A stretch of 43,078 nucleotides of DNA from Fragilaria crotonensis (lineage: Eukaryota; Bacillariophyta; Fragilariophyceae; Fragilariales; Fragilariaceae), in contig JAKSYS010000539.1 of the NCBI GenBank assembly GCA_022925895.1, forward strand, positions 1 through 43,078, given 5' to 3'. Numbering within the stretch: position 1 is the stretch's first letter; the number at the start of each line of letters is the position of its first letter. Shown here in pieces: positions 5,737 through 42,437 of the stretch. The notes below the pieces were generated by a model. That model worked only from the letters and a program-made list of their open reading frames with translations, searched no databases and had not been told where the DNA came from. The translations under genes and the position numbers were made by a program.

Positions 5737-7935
5737 ATGGGCAACTCCGCTTCCTCCCTTCCCTATTCCATCGGAGACAAGAAACCAAACGACGATGGAT
5801 GCTGGGCAGTCCATGATGGCAGTCAAAAGTCTGATGGCGCGCAAGTGACAGTTTTTCAAGCTCAGAAGCCTCAACTCGCCAAGGAAGGTTTTCGCGGAAA
5901 TCCGTCTGAGAAACAGATCTTTGTGGCTCATCACCACTTTGTCATGGCGAAGAAACTGCGCCACCCTTACATTTTGCAAGTATTAGCGACTTTGGATACA
6001 GACGCGCCCTCGAATGAAGAACCAGCCAACACGCAGGCTATGGCTACTAGTGGAGCCTACATTATTGTTACCGAACCCTGCAAGCCTCTCCAAGATTGGT
6101 TGATTGAGGATTCTCCAAATCCCGATCAACTTGCCTGGGGTTTGCAGTGCATTGTCCAAGCCTTGTGCTTTGTCCATACTGGTGCTCAACTTGCACACGG
6201 AATAGTCACTCCCAAATCGTTCTGGGTTACGCCCAGTGGAGATGTCAAGTTATGGAATTTTGGTATCGTGACGCCCATTGGCGTTGCCGATGGAGGTGGT
6301 GGTCCTTCACAACATTTTCGACAATATGAGGCATTCGTTACTCCACAAGCCTATCGCAGCCCGGAACGGGTCAAGGCACAATGGGAGGCGCTGGCAACAA
6401 ATCCCGTTCATTGTATGGATGCCTATTCGTTGGCAATTCTGATTAGTGATTATTTCCATGGCGATATCCCTGGTCCCCTCCAAAAGGCATCCCAACGACT
6501 CATGACACCTTCCCTCAAGATGAGACCACGATTGGGCCCACTCCTCAAATGCCCTATCTTTGAAACACCATACGCCAAGTTGCTACAAGAGCTGATGGAG
6601 ATACCGATTCAACCGGTTGATCAAAAGTTAAGATTTTGGCAGTCTCTCAATATGGAAACTATGGATCCGTCAGTCGCGCAATTCAAGGTTCTTCCACTGA
6701 TCCAGAGTACCATTAAGACTATCTGTTCCTCTGAGGCGATGTTGTCCCAGGACTTATACCGTCGAGAAGTTTTGGCCATGCTGACGCCCCTTTTCTATAT
6801 ATCGGAAAATATTTTGGAGAAGGATGATATCGCAAAGGCTCTCTCGCCTCTAATGCAGCTCTTGTTTTCTGTTAAAGATCGAGGTGTTCGTGGCTCACTC
6901 TTGGGCAAGACTCCGCTATTTGCCTCGCATCTGTCCAAACAGGATTTGAATACACTAGTCTTCGAACCGCTCTGTTCTGGATTTGCCGATTCCAGCGATG
7001 CCCTCCGAGAACTAACCCTCAAAGCAACCTTCGTCTTGGTTTCTCACCTATACCCCCCTAACGTTGAGAAATTGAGTCGATACCTGGTGCGACTCCAAAG
7101 TGACACCTCGCCTGGAATTCGAGCGCATACCATGATCATGATTCCGCAGCTTGCACCCCATCTCAGCGAAGTGGCACGACAGAAGTTATTACTCCCCGCA
7201 TTTGCGCGAGCCTCCAAGGATCCTCATCCCCCCTGCCGTTTAGCGAGTTTGCGATCGACCACCCTATGTCAAGAATACTTCACACTGGACGAGTTGGCAA
7301 CCAAGGTGTTGCCAGGATGCATGCCACTTGTGTTGGATGGCGTCGGTGACGTACGTTCCGCGGCGTTTGAAGTGATTGAAGAGTTCCTGGGAAAGTTGAA
7401 AGCCGCACACAAGGAGAGATCAGTCGGAGAAGTTAGTGGTGCAGTCTCGTCTGTGGCGAGTCAAATGCCAGTTCTGCCGTCGGCAGCAGCTCAACCATCC
7501 GCATCCGCATCGGTGGCGGCGGTGGCGGCTCCTAGTAGTGGCAGCTATTTGGGTGGTCTATCCGGGTGGTACAGCAGTACGTCTGCTGCCGCTCCAACGC
7601 CCCCACCCCCACGACCAGTTGTTCCTCCAACACAAGTGCGAAGCACTCCCGTCGCAAAACCAGCCACGCCAAAATTTTCTTCTATCAGCATCGGGGGCGA
7701 AACATTGGGTGCAAGTGGGGGATGGGATGATGATGACGACGACTTGGGCCTGGATGACAACGAGGAGGAGGACGTGTTCGCATCAATTGGCATGAATAGT
7801 AAGAAGGCCACGTCAACGTCGAGTGGAGGCAAATTAATCATGAAGAAGGCGGTTGTGACATCAAGTAAAGTGAAGAAAGCAGATGTGAAAAAGCTATCCC
7901 TCGACGATGAGTTCGACGGGTGGGATGATTTTTAA
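5737..7935 (+). CDS. SCY1-like pseudokinase (SCYL1/NTKL family)
   Basis: An intact single-exon gene for 732 residues. SCYL1-type proteins bind COPI coat and act in Golgi-ER membrane traffic and tRNA export; this role is inferred from the family. The N-terminus MGNSASSLPY matches the family and is a good N-myristoylation signal (Gly2, Ser6). Residues about 20-300 form a kinase-like domain that looks inactive: the catalytic-loop position reads AHGIVTPKSFW (from residue 153) instead of HRD-K-N, and the DFG position reads WNFG (173-176). Residues about 330-560 are helical HEAT-like repeats. Residues 570-660 are Ala/Ser/Pro-rich linker. The tail has two acidic tryptophan motifs, GGWDDDDDD and the C-terminal DGWDDF. 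The animal C-terminal RKLD coat signal is absent. The start is fixed by the family N-terminus. Confidence 0.93.
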   Translation: MGNSASSLPYSIGDKKPNDDGCWAVHDGSQKSDGAQVTVFQAQKPQLAKEGFRGNPSEKQIFVAHHHFVMAKKLRHPYILQVLATLDTDAPSNEEPANTQAMATSGAYIIVTEPCKPLQDWLIEDSPNPDQLAWGLQCIVQALCFVHTGAQLAHGIVTPKSFWVTPSGDVKLWNFGIVTPIGVADGGGGPSQHFRQYEAFVTPQAYRSPERVKAQWEALATNPVHCMDAYSLAILISDYFHGDIPGPLQKASQRLMTPSLKMRPRLGPLLKCPIFETPYAKLLQELMEIPIQPVDQKLRFWQSLNMETMDPSVAQFKVLPLIQSTIKTICSSEAMLSQDLYRREVLAMLTPLFYISENILEKDDIAKALSPLMQLLFSVKDRGVRGSLLGKTPLFASHLSKQDLNTLVFEPLCSGFADSSDALRELTLKATFVLVSHLYPPNVEKLSRYLVRLQSDTSPGIRAHTMIMIPQLAPHLSEVARQKLLLPAFARASKDPHPPCRLASLRSTTLCQEYFTLDELATKVLPGCMPLVLDGVGDVRSAAFEVIEEFLGKLKAAHKERSVGEVSGAVSSVASQMPVLPSAAAQPSASASVAAVAAPSSGSYLGGLSGWYSSTSAAAPTPPPPRPVVPPTQVRSTPVAKPATPKFSSISIGGETLGASGGWDDDDDDLGLDDNEEEDVFASIGMNSKKATSTSSGGKLIMKKAVVTSSKVKKADVKKLSLDDEFDGWDDF

Positions 7936-8800: not shown

Positions 8801-11800
8801 TACTACTACCGGTAGATCATGTTTGGTCATCTGCGTCGCCTCTCACCTCTTCTAAAAAAAACCGATGGTGTCGTAGACCAGCCATACTACTGTACTCAGC
8901 GTCAAAATGATAAATGCGCACCATGTCACCATGATCTTGTTCTCAATAACTTCATTGCCAATCCTTTGAATTCCAAGCCAACATCTGCGTGGAACTTCAT
9001 CATCATCAAGACTCTGTTGTGGCCATAATTTTCTTTAGTAGTAGTACTTCATCAACAAATATGTGTGATTGTTAAGGCTTTTGATGATGAGCTTATTGCA
9101 ATTTATGAAGGGGTCTGGCATGCAGTGCAACACCAACAGGACTTTATCTTTCCCAAATGCCATAGATGCTTGGGCAGTTGTCGGGGAAAAAGAGAAGATT
9201 ACTTTGAGTGTCTGAGTGTCACATTTCAAGATTCCCTACATGTAAAGTGTTGGCAGGGAGAAAATCCGACTATTGATATTGCTACAGCACACCAGAAATT
9301 TGTGTACACAATACCGGTATGCAGCAATGAATTGGCTTTCAAGGGTGATGTAGTGATTAGTGCTGCATGAGAACAGAAATTGAGAATAAACAAGTAACAC
9401 CATGATGAGTCATACTGAACACTGTTGCACTTAATCAGCAGAGGATGTTTAGAATTGTTTCCGAAAGATCATGTGCGCCGGGCTGTACTGTATTGTAGAC
9501 ACACTGCCAAACAGCACGGTGCGTATGTACTATAGTGGACACCATATGGTAAGTCGTGAGAAATATGCCGTGACGGTTCATTGCAGCAGTTCGAAGGGTA
9601 TACTCTTCATTCAAGTTTTTGAAGAATTACCCGCAAGGAACTGGTACATCAACTGATGTGGTGGTGGCTGTGCTACTAGGCAACAAAATGACATTTTAAA
9701 CTTGTCCATGTTCATCTGCCTGGTTCATTGCAGTTGGAAGGGTATACTCTCCATTCAAGTTTTTGAAGAATTACCCGCAAGGAACTGGTACATCAACTGA
9801 TGTGGTGGTGGCTGTGCTAGTAGGCAACAAAATCACATTTTAAACTTGTCCATGATCATCTGCCTGGGACAAACAAACTACAAACAATACTAGTTTTCTT
9901 GCTACCTTGTCCACTAGACAAATGCTGTATGCACATGAGAACAACTGATTTTTAATTCATCTGCACTTAGATGTCCCCCATCCAGCAAGACCTGTCATGA
10001 TGTACAAAGGAGCGAGTAATTTTGATGGTGGGCACCCATCAGCCATCATACACTCATTACAAGAAAAAACACAATGAATAATTTCACAAGGAGACACCAG
10101 CCACACAACAATAAATTCACTCCCTTAAATCCTTCACCCTGTCTCATCATGTAGGCATGAACTTGCTGAGGGTGACAGCAACTAGTAGTCGTTCCTCTTG
10201 AACTCTTCTTGACAAGAATACTACATGTAGTACTAGTAGCTAGCTAGCGGAGGATGCATCATCTTGTCAACAGAGAATGGGCTAGAAGAAGGATGCTCAT
10301 TTTCTTTTATATCAACCACCATTCAGAAGATGTAAAGTATTTCAACATCCTTAAGCAACTGAAGAAAAAATTGTTTTGTTGGGAGAAAGCATTGTTGTAC
10401 ATCTCTCACCGCAACAGAGAGTTGCGGCATCTTTCCCTTCACATTTCAGATACAACAACTGAGGACATCTGACAAAGAACATGATATCTTGTGACACAAC
10501 CAGGACAAGTTCAGTGCTTGCGGTTTTTGGCCTATGGGCATATTTGTCCTTCCTTCCAATGAGGCCTTGTTACCACACAGAGAAAAACCAGTCTTGCCGG
10601 GCTTCAAAACTGACCTCCCCCAACTTCCTTTTCAGACTCTAAAGAATCCTCATTACAGCAGGGAAAGGGTACTCAACAAAACTTAATTGACCTCAACATT
10701 GTGTTGAGGAGTTGAGAATGAGATATTTGGAAAGCACATTCTTTGCAACAAAAGTTGAGAATGCTTGAATCTCGTTAATCATGAGACTTATCTTGGTGAA
10801 ATAATGTGTGTTATCTCCAACATACACCATGTATGTCACTTTTCACAAAGCATCAAGGAAAAACACTTTGTTCATCATTCTGACTGCTACTGCTCCAAAT
10901 GAATTCGAAGAATGTGACAGGGCGAGTTGTTTGAAGTGAAGCGATGATAGTGCAACAGTTCCTGCATGATTGCATGTTACTGCCCATTGATGATGTTGGA
11001 TGTTGAGGAACAAAGAACTGTTCCTTGTTGTGAAGCACTCTCCAAAAGCTCATCTGATTGCTTTGTTGATGGTAACAATCAGGATTGTTCTGACATGGAC
11101 ATTCGACATCTTCGTGACGTGCGGTGTACTCCAGCATGATTCTACCGGTAGAATGTTTGTACAGAACGGGAGTTCTATTCACGATACGGTACAACGAGGG
11201 ACTCGGAGTTTGACAGAATACTGCCTACCGGTGGACTCCCTTCAAACGTCAAAGAACGTGAGACGTGAGAGTTTTGAGTTCTTTGCATATTACTAGTAGT
11301 AGCTAGTAGCTAGTACTACTACTACCTGGTACTACAGTACCATTTCTGCTCGTCAAGAAGGGGCTTGAATATGGCCCTGCCTCTTTCCGTCCTCAAAAAA
11401 ATTCAGTAGGACATCCAGCACATGTGACATACGACCATTTCGCGCGTTGATCAGGTATGAAGGCGTTTCCGCTTGGTTGGTGTCGTTTTTTCTATGCCTG
11501 ATTCAAATCGCCGCCGTCATTGACAGCTACCTATTGCCCTCCACTCTTATTTTTCCAATAGTACGTGCTCACAACGTCATTCAGGATGACACCAAAACGT
11601 TCGGTAACATAGTCGTGACTGATCACAAGGCATCAGAAGAAACTCAAAAGAAAAATGGCGTCAAGCCACGGGCATCACAAAACTGCGAACTACCGTACTA
11701 TACATGGCATCAATCAATGCGAACAGGAAAACATTGGTCTCATTTCGCAGTAGAAGACCCATTCTGGAGAACTTGGTGTCCACAATTATTGGTGGAATAT

Positions 11801-17981: not shown

Positions 17982-19383
17982 TTAGACGTCAATAGCAGAT
18001 TGAACACTGGGTCTCGTTATACCAATAGAGGCAATGTACGAATGTAGTTGCTCTCTCGGTAGCAGTACATGTCGGTATGACCGATCTCGACGACGAATAC
18101 CTGATCGTCCAATATCATCAAAATGCTCACCGCCATGTAATAATTGTTGTGGAACGAGGCTGCTGAGGCGGGATTCGGAGCCCTGATCATAACCTTCAAC
18201 TGGGACCAAGGGGACAGCACCGTTGATTTCAGATAACCACTCATCATGTGCAGTATTTGCAGAAACGTCGGTGTCGCGTGCGTTGATACAGAAGTTATGC
18301 AGCTTAGCTAGAGCCACAACCAATGCAACTGTCTTTTCAATTTCTGATGTTCACCGGTATCGCGCTCCGTAGTATTGCCCATCGTTTAGTCAAAATTCCA
18401 AAGGCACATTCAATTCGTATTCGCAGCTGCGAATGATAAAAGTTGTAGGCGTCCTTTGTCCCACCAGTTGTGCCCGAGTATGGAGTTGCCATGAAGGGCG
18501 TATTCAAGTATGCATTGTCTCCAAAGATACATAGACCAGGAGCGAGAAGCCCATCCTCTAATTGTTGACAGAGGGTCATGCCCTCGAAAGCAAGACAATC
18601 CGAAGTCGATCCAGGATACATGATAGAAATGTCAAGGAACCTACCATCAACGTCACATACTGCCTGGCAATTTAGTCCAAACTTTTTTTTCCGAGTACAC
18701 ATGAACTTACCATCACTACAACCAACGTCCATGCAGTCTTTCTTGGAGGGTTTATGAATCCATATTAGGATACCATCTATGGCCCCGGGGGCACAACAAT
18801 TGAAGCCGGCACTGGAGACGTTTTGAAAACCACGTGCAATCTGTCTTTGAGCATCATGGTCTGTTGGGTATTCAATCTTGAAGTTCGGATGAGAATTGAT
18901 AGCATCTACAACGAACCAGTAACTTCGAAGTGTATCTGAATGACCAATACCGTACGTCGTCATAAGATCATATGATGATGCACCAGAAAGCCATCGAATT
19001 GCACAAGCTAGCCGGACATCGGGACATATTGGACCATTTGGGACAAACCTTCTTGGTCCTCCTTTTTTCCCACATGCATGAAGTATATGGGGACGAAGCT
19101 CGTCCGCAAGAGCCTTGAAGGTGCTGTATTTCATTCGATATGCCCTTCTAAAATACAAAGGGCCAAGTTCATTGTGAATGTCCTCTACAGACCTTCTCTT
19201 GCGTACTTGAAAATGTCTTGTGCGACGAGACCGACGCTTTCGATGACGGCGTCCTTGAACTTTCCTTGATTGACGTTCAAGAAGGACGGCAGTGACATTG
19301 GCAACAATGCTACTAACCCTTAAGGAGTTCTCTAAGCCATCATCGTGGGACAGCATCTGCACATTGCTTGCGGTGGCAGTCAT
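17982..19383 (-). CDS. PIF/Harbinger DDE transposase (HARBI1-like), one frameshift
   Basis: The start is ATG at 19383-19381. The protein has an N-terminal basic stretch (RRHRKRRSRRTRH, residues 45-57) and a DDE_4-type nuclease domain. Catalytic candidates are Asp203 in GAIDGILIW, Asp289 in FGDNAYLN and Glu325 in RIECAFGILTKRW, all intact. At about 18338 the frame hits a stop just after IPVNIRN. The expected continuation IEKTVALVVALAKLHNF is present one frame over and runs to the TAA at 17982. The protein would therefore be about 460 residues, a normal HARBI1 size, with a single indel near an A-run (AGAAATT). The enzyme would cut and paste the element together with its companion protein. Confidence 0.85.
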
Positions 19384-23620: not shown

Positions 23621-26600
23621 ATGGATTTTGAATTCTTTGATGATGACGATGCCGAAGAAGAACAGGTACTATCAGTGGAAGATGCTCTTCATCGAGTCGA
23701 AACCTTGTTCACCACAAAACACGATTTTTTAAAGGAAGATTTCCTCCAACGTATGGAACCCACGATTCGATACGCTTTGGGCCGAGTGGACGATGACGAA
23801 ACTGAGTATGTGTTTCAAAGTCTAGCAATGATGAATCTGGCTGCGCATCTTTGTGGGAGTCATCAGTATTCCTGCTTTGTTGATGGTTTGACTGTGCTAG
23901 GTGGCGTGTTTTTGAGCGACACGGAGGAGGAATTGCCAGAAGACGACTTGGAATCCACCTTGAGTGTCCTACACCACCTTCAGAACCGTCTGTACCCCCC
24001 TGTGCACTGCATACCGCATCGCCGGTTCTACCAGATGAACCGACGCGCCGATCCTTTGTTGGTGGCTCTGGTCGCTCATGTTGTGGCCCAGTCAGCCGTC
24101 GATTGGGACGAAGTGGCGTCCACCACCAAGCATTTCATCCAGTCATCCACTCATATGGACGCTAACAGCGTTCGAGTCGGTCTGGCAATCTACGGGTTGC
24201 AACGGCTCAAGAGGAGACAAAGAATGGAGGGGCTAACCATGCAGCTTGTTTTGGAGAAGTTGAGCCCGAAATTGTAAGCTTTTTTTCTCACGCTGTTCTC
24301 GTTTGCAGAGACCACGCGACTCATTCATTTTGTATTTACAGCTCGATCGGAATATTTTCGCGCCGCAGCTCTGTCAACTTATGTGGCTTCGATGTACATT
24401 ACTAATGCGGTTGTGCTTATCGACGATGTTGATGATCAAACTTACTCAAGAAATGTTGATGCTCTCTCCGGATTGCTACGAGAGACTGGTGCGGCACACG
24501 AGGATGCTGCTTACAGCTTTATTGAAACGGCGAACAAGAGCCGCGCGACTAGCCACACACCTAGTGCGCTAGCGATCGAAGGCTCTGGTCCACAAGAGCG
24601 AATTACTGTCCTTTCTCCTGAGTTTGTTCTGGAGACACACCTCATGCTTTTCATCGCCCGTGATGAGTTATCCGCAGCTAGGAGGCTTGCGTTGAAAATG
24701 GAAGGCTGTTCGTGGTTGAGTTCGAAGGTTAAAATGGATGCTTGGGGTCGTATCCTGAGTCACCTGCGCCAAATCGGAATGCTACTCCTTGACGGCAATC
24801 ATGCGACTCCTTGCTATGAGAGAAAATTCCAAGATCTCACTATCCTGGTCATGAGCATGGGCCAGCCTCTAGGAGTGGACGTCTTGTGCAATTTCTTTCA
24901 TGATTTCGCATCAGAGGTATCTCGAAATGATGCGGCTACAGAAGAAGAGAAGACCTATGTCACCTTGGCAGCTCAGCGGACGCTGCTCCTTCTACTCCGG
25001 AATAGGTACTCGAACGATGAGAAAGCCGTCAAGGAGTGGCTGGACGTCTTTCCAAATTTATCATATTTTGGTAGTAGCGCAGTAGATTGGGCTGAGGGTT
25101 TTGTACAGCGAAAAAATCTCATCCCGCCGTCACTATTGGTCGACGGCTTTGTTGATCTGAATGCCTTCCGCACCCGCGCGATTAAATCTCGCATACTCGC
25201 TCCTATTGAAGCTCTGGAAATCCAAGAGGAATCTAAAGAGCATTTGCGACGTATGCGCGCGGACGAGGAAGTGTGTGTTGTGGACGACGAAGAAGGACAG
25301 GATGTCGACGAAGTGTGTGTCGTGGATGACGAGGAGGAGCAGGATGTCGCCGAAGTCTTTGTCGTGGACGACGAAGAGGAACACGATGCCGACGAAGTGA
25401 TTGACATTGTTGACAACGATTCTGACGTCGTCGAGGATATGGAAGACGTAGAGAGTGAAGTTGATGAGGACGACACAGAGGAGCTCGACCAAGCGGAAGG
25501 CGTTATGTATGGCACCGGCGAGGAAGAGTCTCACGAGGGAAACGATGAAGATGCCGAGACTGAAGAAACACACGGTCGTAGTCGCGTTTGGACGGACGAA
25601 AGCAAACGCCTTCGTGTTTCTGGAGATCAAAGGCTTGGCGAGAAAGAAGCTGACGAAGTCGAGGGGCGAGAACCATCTGGTCGTGCTCGTTACGATGACG
25701 ACTATGATTTTGACGGAGAGATGGGTCCTGGCGAAAGCGACGACGGGTCGGATGTGCGCGAAAACGAGGGTACCATCGAGGAAGAGGAGTCAGCGAGTGA
25801 TAATCATGATGTCGTTGAAATCCTTGACGACAGTGACGACGACGAAATGTTGGAAGAAAGCGAGTCCTTCCGTGAGGAACAACTGGAAAGCGACGATGAT
25901 GCGCAGGATGCCGATGTGGAGCACCTGGACGATGATAGCGACGATGAAGCAAGGGATGCCGATGCAGAGCGACTCAACGCTGACAGTGACGCGCAAGACG
26001 ACGGCGACACTCCAGATGTAGGACTAGACACATCAGACATACAGCCTGATATGCAACCAGCGTCTGCGCATGCGGAATCACTCGAAATCGAAGACGCCGA
26101 GCATAACGAAGGGACCGTGTTGAGTGATCTTCAACCGAGAAAAAACCAAAGTTATGCCGAAGATAGGCTGGACCCAGGTTACGAGCCAGACTCTGCTGGG
26201 GGAGATACTTCGCAAGCGGAAACGCACTCTCGACTGGAGAAAGGCTACGAGCCAGACTCTGCGTCCCAGCATGATGACCAAGAAGAGACTCCTTGCAAAG
26301 AGATGTGGAGAGGGGCAAACGAAGAAGCAGCGCGTTTGGAAATGGGGTACGAACCCGACACAGCTGCTGGAGGCGACATCTCGCATGCGGAGATGCAAGA
26401 TCGTTTGGAGAAGGGGTATGAACCCGACGCTGGATCTCAAGTTGATGACCAAGAAGATGACGTGCTGGAGGAGGTACAGCGTGCAAGGAAACTACGAGAA
26501 GCACAAGCTCGATTGGAACAAGGATACGAGCCCGATACGGCTGGAGGAGACATATCTCAGGCCGAGATGCAGGATCGTCTGGAGCAGGGGTACGAGCCCG

Positions 26601-29600
26601 ATACCACTGCTGTGTATACCGAAGAAGAAGTATCAGAGGCGGCTCAAAGTGAGGACGACGACAACGCTTTGGACGAACCTTCCCGAGAACACGACAGCAA
26701 AATCGATGCAGTGTCGACAGCCCAGAAGCCAACACCCGATCAACTTGGGGCGCTCTCTGACGACATGGACGCTGCTGATGACCGGACTGAAGTTGATCAT
26801 GGTGCTGAACTATCAGAAGTTGAAGAAAGCATGTCGCAGGCTTGTGAGGCGGCGGACCACGGTGTTTCAAGCAGCCTAGAGGCAAGCTCGACACTACTTG
26901 CATTCGCCTATGAAGCACAAAATCGTCCTACTGACATAAACGAAGAACTCGCTACTGACCTACGCAGAAACAAGATCGATGCTGCCTATTCTCTGTTGGC
27001 TTCCAGGATGTCGCCCGCAGGAAGGACTTCGGAAGCTGTTCGCATGACGTCGTCAGTGGATGGTACATTAGATGCAGAGATCGCCTTCGGGTTGACCCCC
27101 GGTAATGATGCAACCCACCCAGAATCGGAATCGGCGAAGGATGGCTTTGTCCAAGCCGAACATCAAGTTTCGAATGATTTGGCACCCGAACCTTCTGTTG
27201 ATCCGCTCGAGAGAGGGCATTTCAATCATCTCCCAGGGCTTCACCATCTCCGCCCTCCACCCCCGGAGCGAAGCTTATCCACTATTGTGCACTTGAGTGC
27301 TAGCGAGATGAGTGACGATGGAGGGGTGGACGAGCCGGCTAAAATCCAGGAAGAAGATGTTTACGACGAAGCAGAGAGCGATTACGATCCAAAGCATTCC
27401 GACATTCTTCCTGCACTGGACCCTGCGCCCAAGTATGCTGCTTTGACGGGGGAAGAAGGAGAGGACCGTGAGAGTGAAGTCGATGCCAAGTCTCGCTGCA
27501 TTCCGCCTCCCGTAGAACGGTCGCCGAAACGTGCGTCTGATACATGTGAGAAGGGAGAGGAGCCTGTGGAGGAATATGATGCCCACGTACCGGACATTCG
27601 GCCCTCTAGGGAGCCTTCCAAACATGCTTTCAAGGCAGTTGAGGAAGGAGATGACGAGCCTGACAGAGGACTGCAAGCGAATACTCAGCGTCGCGAGGTC
27701 CATTCACCCGAATGTGCTGTTGATGTAGGGGCGGAAGGAGAGGGTCCTCATAATGAAGTCTGTGCCACTGTGCTGGACTCACAGATTCCCTCCAGACCGA
27801 CGCCAAGGCGTACTAGTGAGGCATCCGAGAAAGGACAGGAGTCTGACAATGGCGTCAATCTAAATTCAAAGAACTTAAAGGAACCACTCCAAAGTGGTGT
27901 CGAGACCCTTGAGGAAGGAGTCGAGCCTGATGGTATAGCCTGCGCGACGCCAACGATTAGCCAGCATAGTGTGGCACGGGGGCAGAAAGAAAGGCCTGGA
28001 ATCCCACCTACGTCTGTTGAAGGAGGAGATGGTGCGCTGAGTTCTGCCATCGCAGTCGATGTAAAGGTGCAGCTGACACGCAACGGAAGGTCTAGAATGA
28101 ACCCTTCGCCTGCTGAGAACGGGGAAGAAGGAGACTATCCTGAGAATGAAGGCGATACAAAGGAAACTCAGGCTCTTGTGTCACTTGGACGCAAAGGAAA
28201 GTCCAGAATCCTTTCTGCGCCTACAGAGAATAAAGAGGAACGAAGTAAACCTTCGATTGACATCGATGCTAGTCCAGAGGAAGTCAAGCCACCTGAGGCT
28301 GCAGGACGCAAGAGAAGGCCCAAAACCCAGCTCGAAGCCGAGCGTGATGTTGCGACGGCAGATGCCGTGTCAATTCCTAGGAGAGAAACCCGTTCAACGA
28401 CAAAAACGGTTGTGGAAGTGGTGCGACAGGATAAGCCTGAGAAGCGAGGTCGCCAGCCGGTGAAGGAAGAGGAAAGTCATGTAGCTCAACCGAAACAGGC
28501 ACGAGGTGAGGACGACAAGAGTGGCACTGAAATTGAAATCCTTAGGGAGGAAAATGAGCCTATCTTGCGACAGGCTAAGCCTAAGCCTAAGAAGCGAGGT
28601 CGCCAGCCGGTGATGGAGGAGGAAAGTCATGTCGCTCAACCGAAACGGGCACGAGGTGAGGACGACAAGAGTGGCGCTGAAACTGAAATCCTTAAGGAGG
28701 AAAACGAGCCAATCGTGCGACAGGCTAAGCCTAAGAAGCGAGGTCGCCAGCCGGTGAAGGAGGAGGAAAGTCACGTCGTTCAACCGAAACATGCACGAGG
28801 TGAGGACGAAAGAGTGGCACTGAAACTGAAATCCTAAAGGAGGAAAATGAGCCAATCTTGCGACAGGCTAAGCCTAAAACTCGAGGTCGCAAGCCGGTGA
28901 AGGAGGAGGAAAGTCATGTCGCTCAACCGAAACCGGCACGAGGTGAGGACGAAACGAGTGGCGCTGAAACTGAATTCCTAACGTTAGAAAATGAGCCATC
29001 CGCACGAAAGGATAAGCCTAAGAAGCGCGGTCGCCTGCCTGTGAAGGAGGAGGAAAGTCATGTCGCTCAACCGAAACAGGCACGAGGTGAGGACGAAAAG
29101 AGTGGCACTGAAACGGAAATCCTTAAGGAGGAAAATGAGCCAATCTTGCGACAGGCTAAGCCTAAGCCTAAGAAGCGAGGTCGCCAGCCGGTGAAGGAGG
29201 AGGAAAGTCATGTCGCTCAACCGAAACGGGCACGAGGTGAGGACGACGAGAGTGGCGCTGAAACTGAATTCCTTAAGGAAGAAAATGAGCCAATCTTGCG
29301 ACAGGGTAAACCTAAGAAGCGAGGTCGCCTGCCTGTGAAGGAGGAGGAAAGTCATTTCGCTCAACCGAAACAGGCACGAGGTGAGGGCGACAAGGGTGGA
29401 GCTGAAAGTGAAGTCCTAAGCGAGGAAAGTGAGCCTATCGTCGACGAGCCGAAGCGTCGTGGTGGTAAGTATTCTGTAAGGAATTCTACCGAAGCGGCGC
29501 CAGTCACGAGCAGACGCTCCGCAAGGGCGCGTGTAGCTACTGTGGAAGAAGAAGTGCCTGATGGAAAGGGAGAGGCCAAGTCACTTGGTAGACAGACTCG

Positions 29601-30147
29601 TCGTCAATCAGAGACGAATCTTGACGAGAGAAAGCCAAGAAAGCGAGGACGGCTTGCAGTGGAGGACACCGATCAGGATACCGCAGTTATTCCGAACAAA
29701 AAACTCAGTCGTGGTCGACAGTCGAAGGCATCATCTGAACCCGATGTCAATGAAAAACACGAGAATCAACCGCAGGCACGGACGACGCGCGGTTCTGGGA
29801 AGAAAGCTCGTGACGCATCACCCGCCTCAATGAGGCAGTCCGCGGATGTTCGCAACACAAAAAATGGCGGTGATGAGGAAGGGGTCCAGAAGGCGGGAGC
29901 GCAACGTAGAAATACCAGAGGTGTTAAAAAGGAGAAAGGCAGCGTTCCTCTGAATTCAGAAGCTGGTAGGAGCGACACCGGTGCTACGGGTACGGATTCC
30001 CTTCAGTTAGCGAAGGAGGAGGGAGGGGAGCTACAATCTCGCAAGGCTCGAGTGCCTAGAAAGAAGAGTCCAGTCGCCCCAGTTGAGGAAACAGTTGTTC
30101 CGACGCGACGCAGCGCGCGTGGAAGGAAACCCAATAACAAGTACTAG
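23621..30147 (+). CDS. Giant acidic SIM / AT-hook-like repeat protein (candidate SUMO scaffold)
   Basis: I do not recognise an orthologue. The ATG at 23621 opens MDFEFFDDDDAEEEQ. Exon 1 ends at a GTAAG donor (24274) and exon 2 runs to TAG at 30147. Total length is about 2,150 residues. The first about 550 residues look folded and helical. Then come: (1) an acidic region with four tandem 14-residue units carrying VCVVDD, VCVVDD, VFVVDD and VIDIVDND, plus VVEILDDSDD, all resembling SUMO-interacting motifs; (2) six RLxxGYEPD repeats; (3) a long disordered acidic region; (4) seven 48-50-residue repeats, most with an AT-hook-like KKRGRQP/KKRGRLP and SUMO consensus VKEE and/or LKEE; (5) a basic tail ending RRSARGRKPNNKY. 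A one-base loss in AAA at 28809-28811 shifts the frame, and the exon junction is one base out of phase. Both may be assembly errors. A nuclear, chromatin-bound SUMO hub is inferred. Confidence 0.75.
24274..24308 (+). other. Probable short intron, phase unresolved
   Basis: A 35-bp interval with GTAAGC donor, a T-rich middle and GTTTGCAG acceptor. Joining here leaves the downstream frame (TTRLIHFVFTARSEYFRAAA) one base out. No other nearby AG restores the frame without deleting coding-looking sequence; the next that fits ends at 24450. Either the true splice differs or a one-base error lies nearby. Confidence 0.5.
25271..25843 (+). repeat. SUMO-interacting-motif array, with 42-bp tandem repeat
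   Basis: Inside the giant gene, four units start at 25271, 25313, 25355 and 25397, exactly 42 bp apart. They encode VCVVDDEEG, VCVVDDEEE, VFVVDDEEE and VIDIVDNDSD. A fifth, VVEILDDSDDDE, is at 25811. Each is a hydrophobic V/I-rich core followed by Asp/Glu or Ser, the usual form of a SUMO-interacting motif. Binding is inferred from the motif only. Confidence 0.7.
26164..26605 (+). repeat. RLxxGYEPD repeat region
   Basis: Six copies of the core R-L-(D/E)-x-G-Y-E-P-D-(S/T/A) are encoded, starting near 26164, 26231, 26333, 26400, 26510 and 26576. Spacing varies, with GGDISxAEMQD linkers between some. The core is strongly conserved against a low-complexity background, so it is probably a linear binding motif. 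I do not recognise it. Confidence 0.8.
28442..29440 (+). repeat. Coding minisatellite, seven units of 144 or 150 bp
   Basis: Units begin at about 28442, 28592, 28736, 28879, 29023, 29173 and 29317, a spacing of 144 or 150 bp (one extra KP dipeptide in the longer ones). Each encodes an AT-hook-like core (RGRQP, RGRLP or RGRKP), the SUMO consensus VKEE (six of seven units), a QPKxARGED linker and ILKEENEP or a variant; LKEE, also a consensus, is in four units if the frameshift is bridged. High nucleotide identity between units implies recent expansion or gene conversion. The third unit carries the one-base deletion at 28809-28811. Confidence 0.88.
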
Positions 30148-30569: not shown

Positions 30570-33404
<2,835 letters not shown>

Positions 33405-37894: not shown

Positions 37895-38870
37895 ATGGAA
37901 GAGCAGAAGGAAGCTACGTTCGGGTCTACGATCAGGGCATTCGCCTTCGACGGCGACGAGACGAAGTTCAGGTCCTGGGAAGGGAAGACGATCGCTCTCG
38001 CCGGTTCGAAGGGCTTCCTCCTTGCTCTCACCAAGGCACCTACGGCCACTGGGTTGACTGCTGAAGAGTTCGAGAACGGCGAAGTCGTCGTGCTGGGCGC
38101 TCTGTTGACTGGCGGTGGCGTGGATGCGACCACCTCTTCGTGCTGCTTCGACGACTCGTACGCCTACGACTGCGGAGAACAGGAAGTACAGCGCGTGCGG
38201 CCGCTTGGACTTACCTTGTTGCTAGCTGCTCGGATAAAGCCTACGCTTTGATTGAGCGCAGCGCCGGCGATCCTTTCATGGCTTGGACGATCTTGCAGGA
38301 AGTATTGCTCTACGGACGCGGAAGAGAACTATCCAGATCTCGCGGAGGCTTTCAGCGCATGCAAGTTGGTGGAAGTCAAGCGTGACCCCGAGTTGTGGTT
38401 TAACGACTTGGATCATCTGAACATGCGCATTGGCAGGATCAACACGAAGTATGAGAAGGACGAACTACAAATGAAAGCCCACATCATGAACGCGATGTCT
38501 TCGGGATACGATCCGGTGGTGGTGAAGTTTCGCGGCGAACTTGCAGAGACTTCGCACCAAGCTCAGAAAGGAGATTGTTCTCCAGTATAAGTCTTTGGTG
38601 AAGGTGAAGGGCAAGTCCACTTCGGAGTCTGCTTTGTTGGCGAATGCGAACAAACATCCATTCAAGAAGTTCAAAGGAACCTGCAGGAATTGTGGCAAGA
38701 TTGGCCACAAAGCGGCTGATTGCACCTCGAAGGCAACCGAAGGGAATGGCGCATCCGGAAAGGGCAAAGGCACCGCTGACAAGTCTCACGTCACGTGCTA
38801 CAATTGCGGCGAAAAGGGCACTATTCTAACAAGTGTCCTAAACCCAAGAAGGATAAAGTCAAGGGTGAAG
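37895..38870 (+). pseudogene. Copia gag with two zinc knuckles, frameshifted
   Basis: The ATG at 37895 is 30 bp after the LTR. The N-terminal part (IRAFAFDGDETKFRSWEGKT) matches the copia gag start, with F-DG-(N/E)-W spacing. The capsid-like part continues with WFNDLDHLNMRIGRI near 38400. A first CCHC knuckle, CRNCGKIGHKAADC, is intact at about 38680. The second, CYNCGEKG(H)YSNKC at about 38796-38840, is broken by one missing base at about 38819. Other frame changes occur near 38140-38250 and 38540. Gag would form the particle that packages the element RNA. Confidence 0.85.
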
Positions 38871-41800
38871 AAGCTACAGCTGATATGGCTATGTTTGTGG
38901 GCGTCGCTCGCTTCGTTACGGAGATCGGCGACGACAATGGCGGTCAGGAGGCGAGGAACGGCGACAGGACCAACGATTGGGACGATTCTGAGTTTTTGAT
39001 TTTGGAGAAATATGTGGAGTCATTGGAGTCAGGTCCGACGGCACGATCCCCATTTGAAATTCCTACCATTGTCGCGGAGGACTCTGGTACGAAATTTGTC
39101 GGAGCTACGACCATTACGGTCATTAACCACCCTATCGATCATTATGCCGGCTACTCCGTGACAAGGGATTTTGTCGGAACTGCGGATGCTTCCTGTACGA
39201 ATGGTATCGAGGAATGGTTACTGGATTCGGGTGCCACTTCGGGCGTTACCGACAACAGTCATATGACTGATATGCGTCCATCAAACCGCAAGATCGAAAT
39301 CGGAAACGGTGACATGATTGAGACATTTGGACAAGGTACGGTGACACTGTTGGACAATGACGGCAAGTTGGTTTACTTCACAGATGTGTACTATGCGCCT
39401 GAGTTTACGAAACATATTGTCAGTTTTCCAGCTCATCGAAAAGAATTGGAGTCTCACTTCGGTCTCGCGTGACGAATTTGTCTGGGATGCTCAATGTCTA
39501 CTGAACCGGTACGATTCAAAATGAATGCCTCGGACAAATTGTGTTACTTTGAGGTACGAGGACAACGGTGCCGGAGGAACACCTTACAGTAAATAGTTTA
39601 ACTGCAAGTCCTGTGACTCTTGATATCAATGTTGCTCACGGACTGCTCGGTCATCCTGACACTCGGACTGTGAAGGCTATGGCGGCGCAACACGATTGGA
39701 TTTTGACGGGTTCGGTTCAACCATGTGGATCGTGTGCACTTGCTAAGGCACGAGCCAAAGCAGTTCAAAGTCTACGTTGACGAAGGCGAAGGTTCCCGGA
39801 AAGACTCTTTTGGACATTTCGGGACCATACGCCGACTCGCTGAATCAAAATAAGTACTGGCTTCGGATCGTGGACGACTTTTCGAAATTCAGTTGGGACT
39901 GTTTTCTTCCTAAGAAGAGTGGAATTCAGATTCCGTTGGCGAAATTACTTAAGGCTAATAAAGCCGCTGGAAAGCCCTGCAAGCGCTGCGACAATGCTGG
40001 AGAAAATGAGTCTTATGTACAGGAGCTTTGTGTGGAATATGATGTCATACTTGAAATGACTGCTCCTAACACTCCCCAGATGAACGGTGTCGTGGAACGG
40101 AGCTTCGTGACATGTCGTAATCGTGCTTTCGCTACTATGTACTGTGCGAAACTTTCTTTGGAGACCCAGGCATTGTTGTGGCCGGAGGCAATTAACACGG
40201 TTACCAAGCTGGGCAATTCACTCCCTAAGAAGGCGTCCGATGACCCGTATACTTTGTGGTACGGTGCGGAGGTAAGAAGAACCGTATTCTGGACTATTTG
40301 CAACCTTTCGGACGTGTCGCGTACATCACGAATCGGTCGAAGCTCAAGGCTAAGTTGGATCCGAAATCATTTAAGTGCATCTTTGTCGGATATTCGGATG
40401 ACCATTCTGGCGACACTTATAAGTTTTATAACCCTGCGACTAAGCAGACCATTTTGTCTCGTGACGTGCATCAGTGGATGGAGTGGCATGGACGAATCAG
40501 TGCTACGGATGACCTACCTCTGTTTGAACAGTTGAAGATTCTCGAGGACAGTTCGGTCATTGTGCCTGCTTCTGCGATTGTTCCTTATGTTGAAGATGCC
40601 GAAGTTCGTGATGTTGATGATCTTCTGGACATTCCTGCCGCTACGCCTGGACCGGTCGCGGAGGATGTCATACCAAACGCGCCAGCTATCGTCGATGTTC
40701 CTGCACGGAGGAATTTGGCTGCCTCATTCTCGCCAGCGCATACGAGATCGAAGACGGCGAGCAGCTATGCCGGACATGGACGTTGCTGCGATGTCTGTTC
40801 TATGCGAGACGATACTAAGTGCGACGTTGCAATCGGATCCACAGTTGGGAGTACCAAAGAACTACAAGAGTTAATTAAGCAAAACGACCCTCTATGGATA
40901 AAGTCGATGCATTCGGAACTCGAGAATTTCCTGAAGCGTAACGCCTGGGAATTCCTACGTCGAAGCATGCTACCGAAAGGCCGTAAGACACTGCGAACTC
41001 GCTGGATATTTAAGGAGAAGACGGACGGGACTAAGAAGTCACGATCAGTCATACTGGGCTCGAGCAGGTACCTGGCGTAGATTTCAATGACTCTTACTCG
41101 CCACTTGCGTCGAATCCCACCATCAGACTTGTATTATGCATCACATTGGCAAACGGACGTAAGAAAGATTATTGGGTAACGGACATGATCGATGTTGAAG
41201 CTGCTTTCTTAAATGCTCTTATGGATCAAGACATTTTTATCGAGCTACCTGAAGGGCTGTTGGAATACTTCCTAAGTAAAGGAAAGGACCTTCGTGATTT
41301 TATTATAAAGCTACGGAACAGTACGGATTGGTTCAGAGTCCGAGACTCTGGATGGAAACTTTGCTAAGATATTGATCGGACTCGGGTTAATACAGTGTAA
41401 AACTGATCCGTGCTTGTTTATGCTGTTTACAGATGGCGAACTTCAAGCTCTCGTGGTGGTTTACTGCGACGACTGCATCGTAACGGGCACTCCGTCAGCC
41501 GTTAAGACAATCAAGAAGGGGTCGCTGGCTCTGTCACTATCTCGGACTTAGGCAGGCTAAAGCGACATCTTGGTGTCAATTACGAGTTCGGAACGGACAA
41601 AAATGGCGACTATATTCTGTCCGGTATGACGGATTATCTTGAGGCCATTGTTCGAGACTACGAAGAGTACATCGGAAGTGACGTCAAGGAACGGTCGACT
41701 CCCAGTGCATCTGTGACACCACCCCTGCTCGCCCGAAGACGAAATCATCAATATGGAAATGTTTCGGTCATTTGTCGGACGAATTCTATTTGCATGTGGC

Positions 41801-42437
41801 AAGACGGAACCTACTATAGCTAATGCGTGCAGAGAACTGACCTCACACCTTACTGCCCCAAGCGAAGAACATTGGAACGCTCTGAGTCATTTGGTGGGAT
41901 ATCTTAAGACTGCGTCACTTCAAGGAATCAAGATGAGGACTCCCGATGATTTAAGAGTGGTTGCCTATGTCGATTCGGACTATGCCGGTGACAGAAACGA
42001 TCGGAAGAGTATCTCTGGTTACTTGGTCACGGTTGGAGGATGTCTTGTGTCTTGGATGTCTAAGAAACAGACTGGTGTCACTCTGTCCTCAACGGAAGCA
42101 GAGTTTGTGGCTATGAGCAACGTGGCGACTGAGGTAAAATTCATTGTGTCTCTACTCACGGAGATTATGGGAGGCGGACCTGACGGATCCGACGGCGAAG
42201 GGAAAGGTCCAATCATGCCGAGCATTCTACGCGAGGATAATACCGGGGCGATCTTTATGGCGAAGAACACTGCCATCACACAGGACGAAACACGTGGACA
42301 TTCGAGCAAGATTCGTCAATGACATGGTTCAAGCGAAGGAATTGTCCGTGGAACACATTCAGGTGAAAAACGAGCGACTGTATGACGAAGAATCTGCCGT
42401 TGGTATTGTTCAAGAAACACGCGGCACTTGTCTGTGA
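38871..42437 (+). pseudogene. Copia pol (protease, integrase, reverse transcriptase, RNase H), frameshifted
   Basis: The protease active site is in WLLDSGATSG (about 39215). The pre-integrase zinc region has H-x-H and C-x-x-C (LLGHPDTRT; PCGSCALAK, 39640-39740). Integrase DDE residues are in LLDISGPY, CDNAGENE and GVVERSF (39810-40105), followed by the FGRVAYI and FVGYSDD blocks of the copia integrase tail in a shifted frame (40300-40400). Reverse transcriptase has LRTRWIFKEK, VTDMIDVEAAFLNA and the YCDD active site at 41462-41473. RNase H has YVDSDYAGDR, SSTEAEFVAM and REDNTGAI (41965-42250). Frame changes occur near 39470-39570, 39780, 40260, 41060-41080, 41300, 41540 and 42300, so no complete polyprotein is read here. 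Confidence 0.88.

Follow-up and report, generated by a model that had tools for sequence, protein, structure and literature searches.

Gene layout, copy number and reading frame

The window analysed here, a stretch of 43,078 nt from Fragilaria crotonensis (contig JAKSYS010000539.1, forward strand), carries a gene for a large repeat-containing protein, the putative scaffold (Table 1). The start at 23621 and the stop at 30147 given in the original prediction are both correct; the interval between them is not one clean frame, the intron join and the third tail unit each being one base off.

Table 1. Parts of the putative scaffold gene and the neighbouring TrpRS gene
Feature	Position	Strand	Remarks
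Gene, ATG at 23621 to TAG at 30145-30147	23621..30147	+	about 2,150 codons as three added parts
Exon 1, first half of N-terminal region, probably helical	23621..24273	+	217 codons; ORF and model
Probable intron, 68 nt	24274..24341	+	GTAAGC donor, TTTACAG acceptor; joins one base out of frame
N-terminal region, second half, probably helical	24344..25264	+	mostly-helix model, generic helical matches; assigned to no family
Acidic region	25265..26107	+	D or E at 121 of 281 residues
Four SIM-like cores in tandem array	25268..25420	+	period 42 nt
Fifth SIM-like core VVEILDDSDD, then more acidic residues	25811..25840	+	
Six RL(E/D)xGYEPD(S/T/A) copies	26165..26629	+	GYEPD at 26177, 26243, 26345, 26414, 26522, 26588
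Long linker, acidic, Ser/Pro/Ala-rich, probably disordered	26630..28438	+	judged by composition alone
Seven tandem tail units, 143-150 nt each, charge-balanced	28445..29466	+	consensus RGRQPVKEEESHVAQPKQARGEDDKSGAETEILKEENEPILRQAKPKK
Basic tail, 226 residues	29467..30147	+	C-terminal end TRRSARGRKPNNKY; 52 K+R, 31 D+E
TrpRS gene	30570-31985	-	one-base frame change beside CCC run near 31345, probably an assembly error

The gene was found once in its 62 Mb genome. Neither N-terminal piece, nor the GYEPD region, nor the tail DNA matched any other place when searched against this genome (62.1 Mb), and the tail protein gave three matches here and one elsewhere at E 0.96. All these counts are lower bounds, drawn from the best candidates scored. 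No relatives were found in a viral contig collection searched with both N-terminal pieces, in a genome contig collection searched with the second piece (24344..25264) or in a plasmid collection. Four pieces of the protein scanned against Pfam gave two weak matches below the cut-offs and none above. Conservation is seen between repeat copies within this one protein.

After the probable intron the frame stays open as far as a stop whose last base is 28837; the final part of the gene is read in a different frame, which is open over 28804-30147. The best-looking pair of splice sites, donor 24274 and acceptor 24341, joins one base out of frame. The scanned range holds 24 in-frame GT/GC-AG pairs, none of which is this pair and which are weaker sites, as judged by eye; the GTAAGC donor itself has a single in-frame partner, a poor acceptor whose end lies at 24450. 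The second break falls in tail unit 3 (28739-28881), which at 143 nt is one base short, the other units being 144, 147 or 150 nt long, lengths that depend on where the units were cut. An intron in this unit was rejected, as joining GTGAGG (28800) to the ACAG that follows it (28866) creates a stop, and so was programmed -1 frameshifting, as no start of an X XXY YYZ heptamer lies within 28795-28839.

The neighbouring TrpRS gene is broken in the same way. A stretch of 24 residues aligns with residues 89-111 of the solved TrpRS 3n9i (E 2e-6). The stretch that follows is in a different frame and aligns with residues 115-345 of that chain; the two meet beside the CCC run near 31345, with no space for an intron. 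Since a housekeeping gene next door shows this kind of break, both frame breaks of the scaffold gene are likely indel errors of the assembly. The N-terminus of the TrpRS carries a presequence containing SRAFV, which resembles a diatom plastid-targeting motif.

Elsewhere in the window, a DDE_Tnp_4 transposase is located at 18337-19383 (minus strand), and ORFs at 38541-42322, named by eye, resemble a Copia-type retrotransposon whose frame is broken; of these, a single piece (41753-42319) was scanned against Pfam, with no match up to E 0.01. An ORF at 5737-7935 has weak kinase and HEAT matches, both under the curated cut-offs, and is perhaps SCYL-like.

N-terminal region, SIM-like cores and the GYEPD array

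As judged by predicted models, the N-terminal region is probably helical. Exon 1 gave a weak single-sequence AlphaFold model, mostly helix, with a mean pLDDT of 42, and 24344-25264 gave a mostly helical model with a mean pLDDT of 50. PDB sequence searches with the N-terminal pieces returned weak matches only (E 1.2 and 1.6 for the second half), and Foldseek with the model of 24344-25264 (pLDDT 50) found no match at E up to 0.001. A looser fold search with the same model returned TPR, 14-3-3 and varied natural or designed helical repeats, with no Nse5 among the matches listed; because the pLDDT of the model is 50, these fold matches were rejected as uninformative. The helical module may be an alpha-solenoid. 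An extra loose SIM match, VVLIDDVDDQ (24410), lies within this part and may be buried.

The original prediction had assigned possible SUMO binding to the middle of the protein, on the basis of five V/I-rich cores followed by acidic residues. All five are present at the positions checked: VCVVDD (25271), VCVVDD (25313), VFVVDD (25355), VIDIVDND (25397) and VVEILDDSDD (25811). The first four are exactly 42 nt (14 residues) apart and the cores therefore do not represent five independent origins. In one review, a SIM core is described as four residues, typically with at least three hydrophobic ones and with Cys among those preferred, and acidic or phosphorylatable residues as able to strengthen binding (PMC12751080). 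Hydrophobic cores with such flanks at close spacing, as in tandem SIMs, were found here with a loose pattern; a stricter pattern fits two of the five.

Enrichment was assessed by shuffling of the 281-residue acidic region, which is 43% D+E with 14 K+R. The loose V/I pattern finds 5 cores, compared to 0.42 expected (none of 5,000 shuffles reached five), and still 3 versus 0.23 when two tandem copies are removed (P 0.0002). With a broader V/I/L pattern the figures were 5 versus 0.95 (P 0.001) in the acidic region, 3 versus 0.63 (P 0.014) after removal of two tandem copies and 6 versus 1.9 (P 0.008) over the entire acidic-to-linker stretch. The stricter pattern, a simplified form of the ELM patterns, was not enriched over shuffles (2 of 5 cores, 1.0 expected, P 0.27). 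As a control, 15 other ORFs of the window (4,033 residues), unmatched for acidity and several of them transposon-derived in appearance, contain no SIM core and two psi-K-x-E motifs. A PDB sequence search with the acidic region gave no match.

At the codon level, the three closest SIM copies differ mostly at synonymous sites in the core (10 synonymous and 2 non-synonymous differences, pairwise; pS 0.667, pN 0.030), in contrast to the linker (pS 0.240, pN 0.218). The contrast drops to pS 0.442 and pN 0.175 when the fourth, less alike copy is added over the first seven codons. Together with the loose-pattern enrichment and a genome encoding SUMO and an E1 subunit, this constraint makes SUMO binding through the middle plausible, while the result with the stricter pattern weakens it; on balance, support for SUMO reading by the array is moderate.

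A further array, absent from the observations behind the original prediction, follows the acidic region. RLExGYEPD occurs in six copies, with RLDP in the first. The seven minimal substitutions in the GYEPD codons of the six copies are without exception synonymous (pS 0.911, pN 0.000), a result with a probability of about 5e-5 by chance, assuming random placement and a ts/tv weight of 2; the eight flanking codons have pS 0.776 and pN 0.320. Among the parts of the protein tested, this array is the best constrained. A degenerate DNA search of the whole genome for GYEPDxA found four sites, all in this gene, with a pattern that by its form leaves two of the six cores in this gene undetected, and the GYEPD region searched as protein against its own genome matched no place outside this gene. 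A PDB sequence search with GYEPD gave no match, and the one literature match listed for it concerns bacterial vaccine design. The array is a sharp candidate docking motif and deserves attention first.

The repeat tail

Six of the seven tail units contain VKEE (unit 2 has VMEE) and four contain LKEE, whose lysine has become R in unit 1, T in unit 4 and S in unit 7, so that the original count of about ten psi-K-x-E sites holds. The consensus unit carries two such motifs, compared to 0.16 (P 0.008) or 0.38 (P 0.047) expected by shuffling, according to the residues allowed. Outside the array, [VILMAFP]KxE occurs as LKME (24692), VKKE (29923) and AKEE (30010).

The array overall (pS 0.180, pN 0.120) is younger than the SIM and GYEPD arrays. 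The first six units have a pN/pS of 0.52 (bootstrap range 0.28-1.00, 300 draws). The segment RGRxPVKEEESH has a pN/pS of 0.22, with four synonymous changes among seven minimal ones, and the next segment, VAQPKxARGEDDK, a pN/pS of 2.5, which speaks against a general constraint. For the acceptor sites, constraint is at most suggested. Charges are balanced in the repeat units (23 K+R and 22 D+E in units 1-2, 43 K+R and 46 D+E in units 4-7) and only the segment after the array is basic. Another tandem repeat of the window, two copies of 144 bp with 96% matches at 9586-9867, shares the period of the tail array, its unit looking unrelated by eye.

A SUMO-site predictor has been applied to diatom silicon transporters (PMC2758714). 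Here, psi-K-x-E motifs are present in a genome with genes for SUMO and an E1 subunit, as would be needed for a SUMO substrate. SUMOylation at the tail, as originally proposed, is possible; the proposal loses strength because both motifs of a unit trace back to a single unit that was duplicated, and because three of the seven copies have another residue in place of the LKEE lysine. The case for SUMO attachment at the tail, as read from sequence motifs, is weak.

The prediction of one RGR-type core per repeat was borne out: RGRxP is found in all seven units and once more at the extreme C-terminus. Five units have PKKRGRxP, the others being PEKRGRQP (unit 1) and PKTRGRKP (unit 4). No GRP core exists in the tail repeats or the basic tail, and no Pfam family was detected in 28858-30144 at E up to 5, a search in which the HMMER filters drop most matches above about 0.1. 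AT-hooks mostly have GRP, with four exceptions in one list (PMC11354804). The tail lacks the GRP with basic flanks of HMGA-type hooks and carries instead the PKKRGRxP of the MeCP2 AT-hook 2 type, PKKRGR followed by one residue and P. In a study of MeCP2, this hook (PKKRGRKP) has a barely detectable AT-hook character, a displaced proline being a suggested cause (PMC5028900). MeCP2 has one such motif and a methyl-CpG domain, whereas the scaffold has seven units, each running into an acidic EEE that should weaken DNA contact; the seven RGRxP copies could nevertheless bind DNA by number. Among the diatom literature matches listed, no AT-hook protein of such kind appeared. Without GRP, and with a nearest form that is barely AT-hook-like, AT-hook binding by the tail is the least supported of the original claims and has little support from its sequence.

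SUMO machinery and possible roles of the protein

The genome encodes a SUMO (on contig C40) that shares 45% identity with yeast Smt3 across 67 residues and has PDB matches to SUMO, as well as a UBA2-type E1 domain (80 bits). The C48 protease family has 58 matches, many of them perhaps from mobile elements, and the SUMO-like family PF11976 has 14, several ubiquitin-like by eye. A search for zf-MIZ (PIAS/Siz) gave one match, below the cut-off (27.1 versus 33.5 bits). Two weak SUMO-like matches (G000:C203:6779-6958 and C763:11880-12059, E about 0.004-0.005) are possibly Rad60/Esc2-like.

The motif layout of the protein is real and unusual. Tentatively, and at somewhat less than even probability, we read it as a single-copy, mostly disordered nuclear scaffold that would read SUMO through several weak sites. 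The helical N-terminal module might hold a partner complex; the four close SIM-like cores and the fifth would bind chains of SUMO or proteins SUMOylated at several sites, with an affinity raised by acidic flanks and phosphorylatable serines; and the GYEPD array might offer repeated docking sites to a partner. Through its RGRxP repeats and basic tail end the protein would reach the nucleus and make a loose, charge-driven contact with nucleic acid rather than specific AT-hook binding, and some VKEE lysines may serve as SUMO acceptors. Against this reading stands a frame that is broken twice in the assembly.

Known systems offer parallels. In PML, SUMO acceptor sites are combined with SIMs, and the scaffold shares this combination of acceptor-type sites and SIM-like cores. 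The likeness to PML put forward in the original prediction stands as an analogy and goes no further, as none of four pieces had a RING or B-box match in Pfam at E up to 5. By analogy of layout, and with no claim of kinship, the scaffold would work like SIMC1, the SLF2 partner and SMC5/6 cofactor, in which tandem SIMs in a long disordered region and an alpha-solenoid make a working SUMO-directed adaptor (PMC9708086). The order is reversed in the scaffold, whose helical part is N-terminal, and the GYEPD array and repeat tail are its extras. The four closely spaced cores also recall RNF4, described as a poly-SUMO reader with four close SIMs (PMC12751080); unlike RNF4, the scaffold showed no RING in Pfam scans of four pieces, is far larger and is acidic. 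No SUMO-reading nuclear scaffold in diatoms appeared among the titles and abstracts listed, drawn mostly from outside the subscription literature, and the combination of tandem SIMs, phase separation and PML gave no literature match. If the SUMO-reading scaffold proves true, it could count among candidates for organising SUMO-rich nuclear bodies beyond the animals.

Possibly, if on the doubtful side, the protein is instead an acidic chromatin- or histone-binding adaptor, whose acidic stretch would bind histones or other basic proteins and whose basic tail would bind nucleic acid, the SUMO motifs being by-products of V- and E/K-rich disorder. The D+E content of the acidic region with its few basic residues, the lack of enrichment of the stricter SIM pattern, the shared origin of both tail psi-K-x-E motifs in one duplicated unit and the replaced LKEE lysines are all consistent with it. 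Against it stand the enrichment of the loose pattern and SIM cores that change mostly at synonymous sites when their linkers do not.

The self-associating scaffold of the original prediction, in which a SUMOylated tail is bound by the middle of other copies and AT-hook-like cores anchor the assembly on AT-rich DNA, appears unlikely. The ten acceptor consensus sites, the SIM-like array and the SUMO and E1 genes would suit it, as would SUMO itself, described as glue-like in PML bodies (PMC8430037) and used with its peptide ligand as a phase-separation model (PMC10859935). Counting against it are the missing GRP core, the resemblance of RGRxP to the barely active MeCP2 hook, charge-balanced rather than basic units and the absence of LKEE from three units. 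Quite improbable, in our view, is a chromatin organiser specific to this lineage and driven by SUMO, which it would both carry and read, with a client recruited repeatedly through a new short motif, RLExGYEPD(S/T)A; such an organiser would be PML-body-like, built without RING or B-box.

That the gene is decaying, its out-of-frame intron join and short unit 3 being real and no full-length protein being made, is very unlikely given the same kind of break in the TrpRS next door, which points to assembly indels, a frame that apart from the breaks is open across 1,484 codons, and the codon constraint on the GYEPD and SIM cores.
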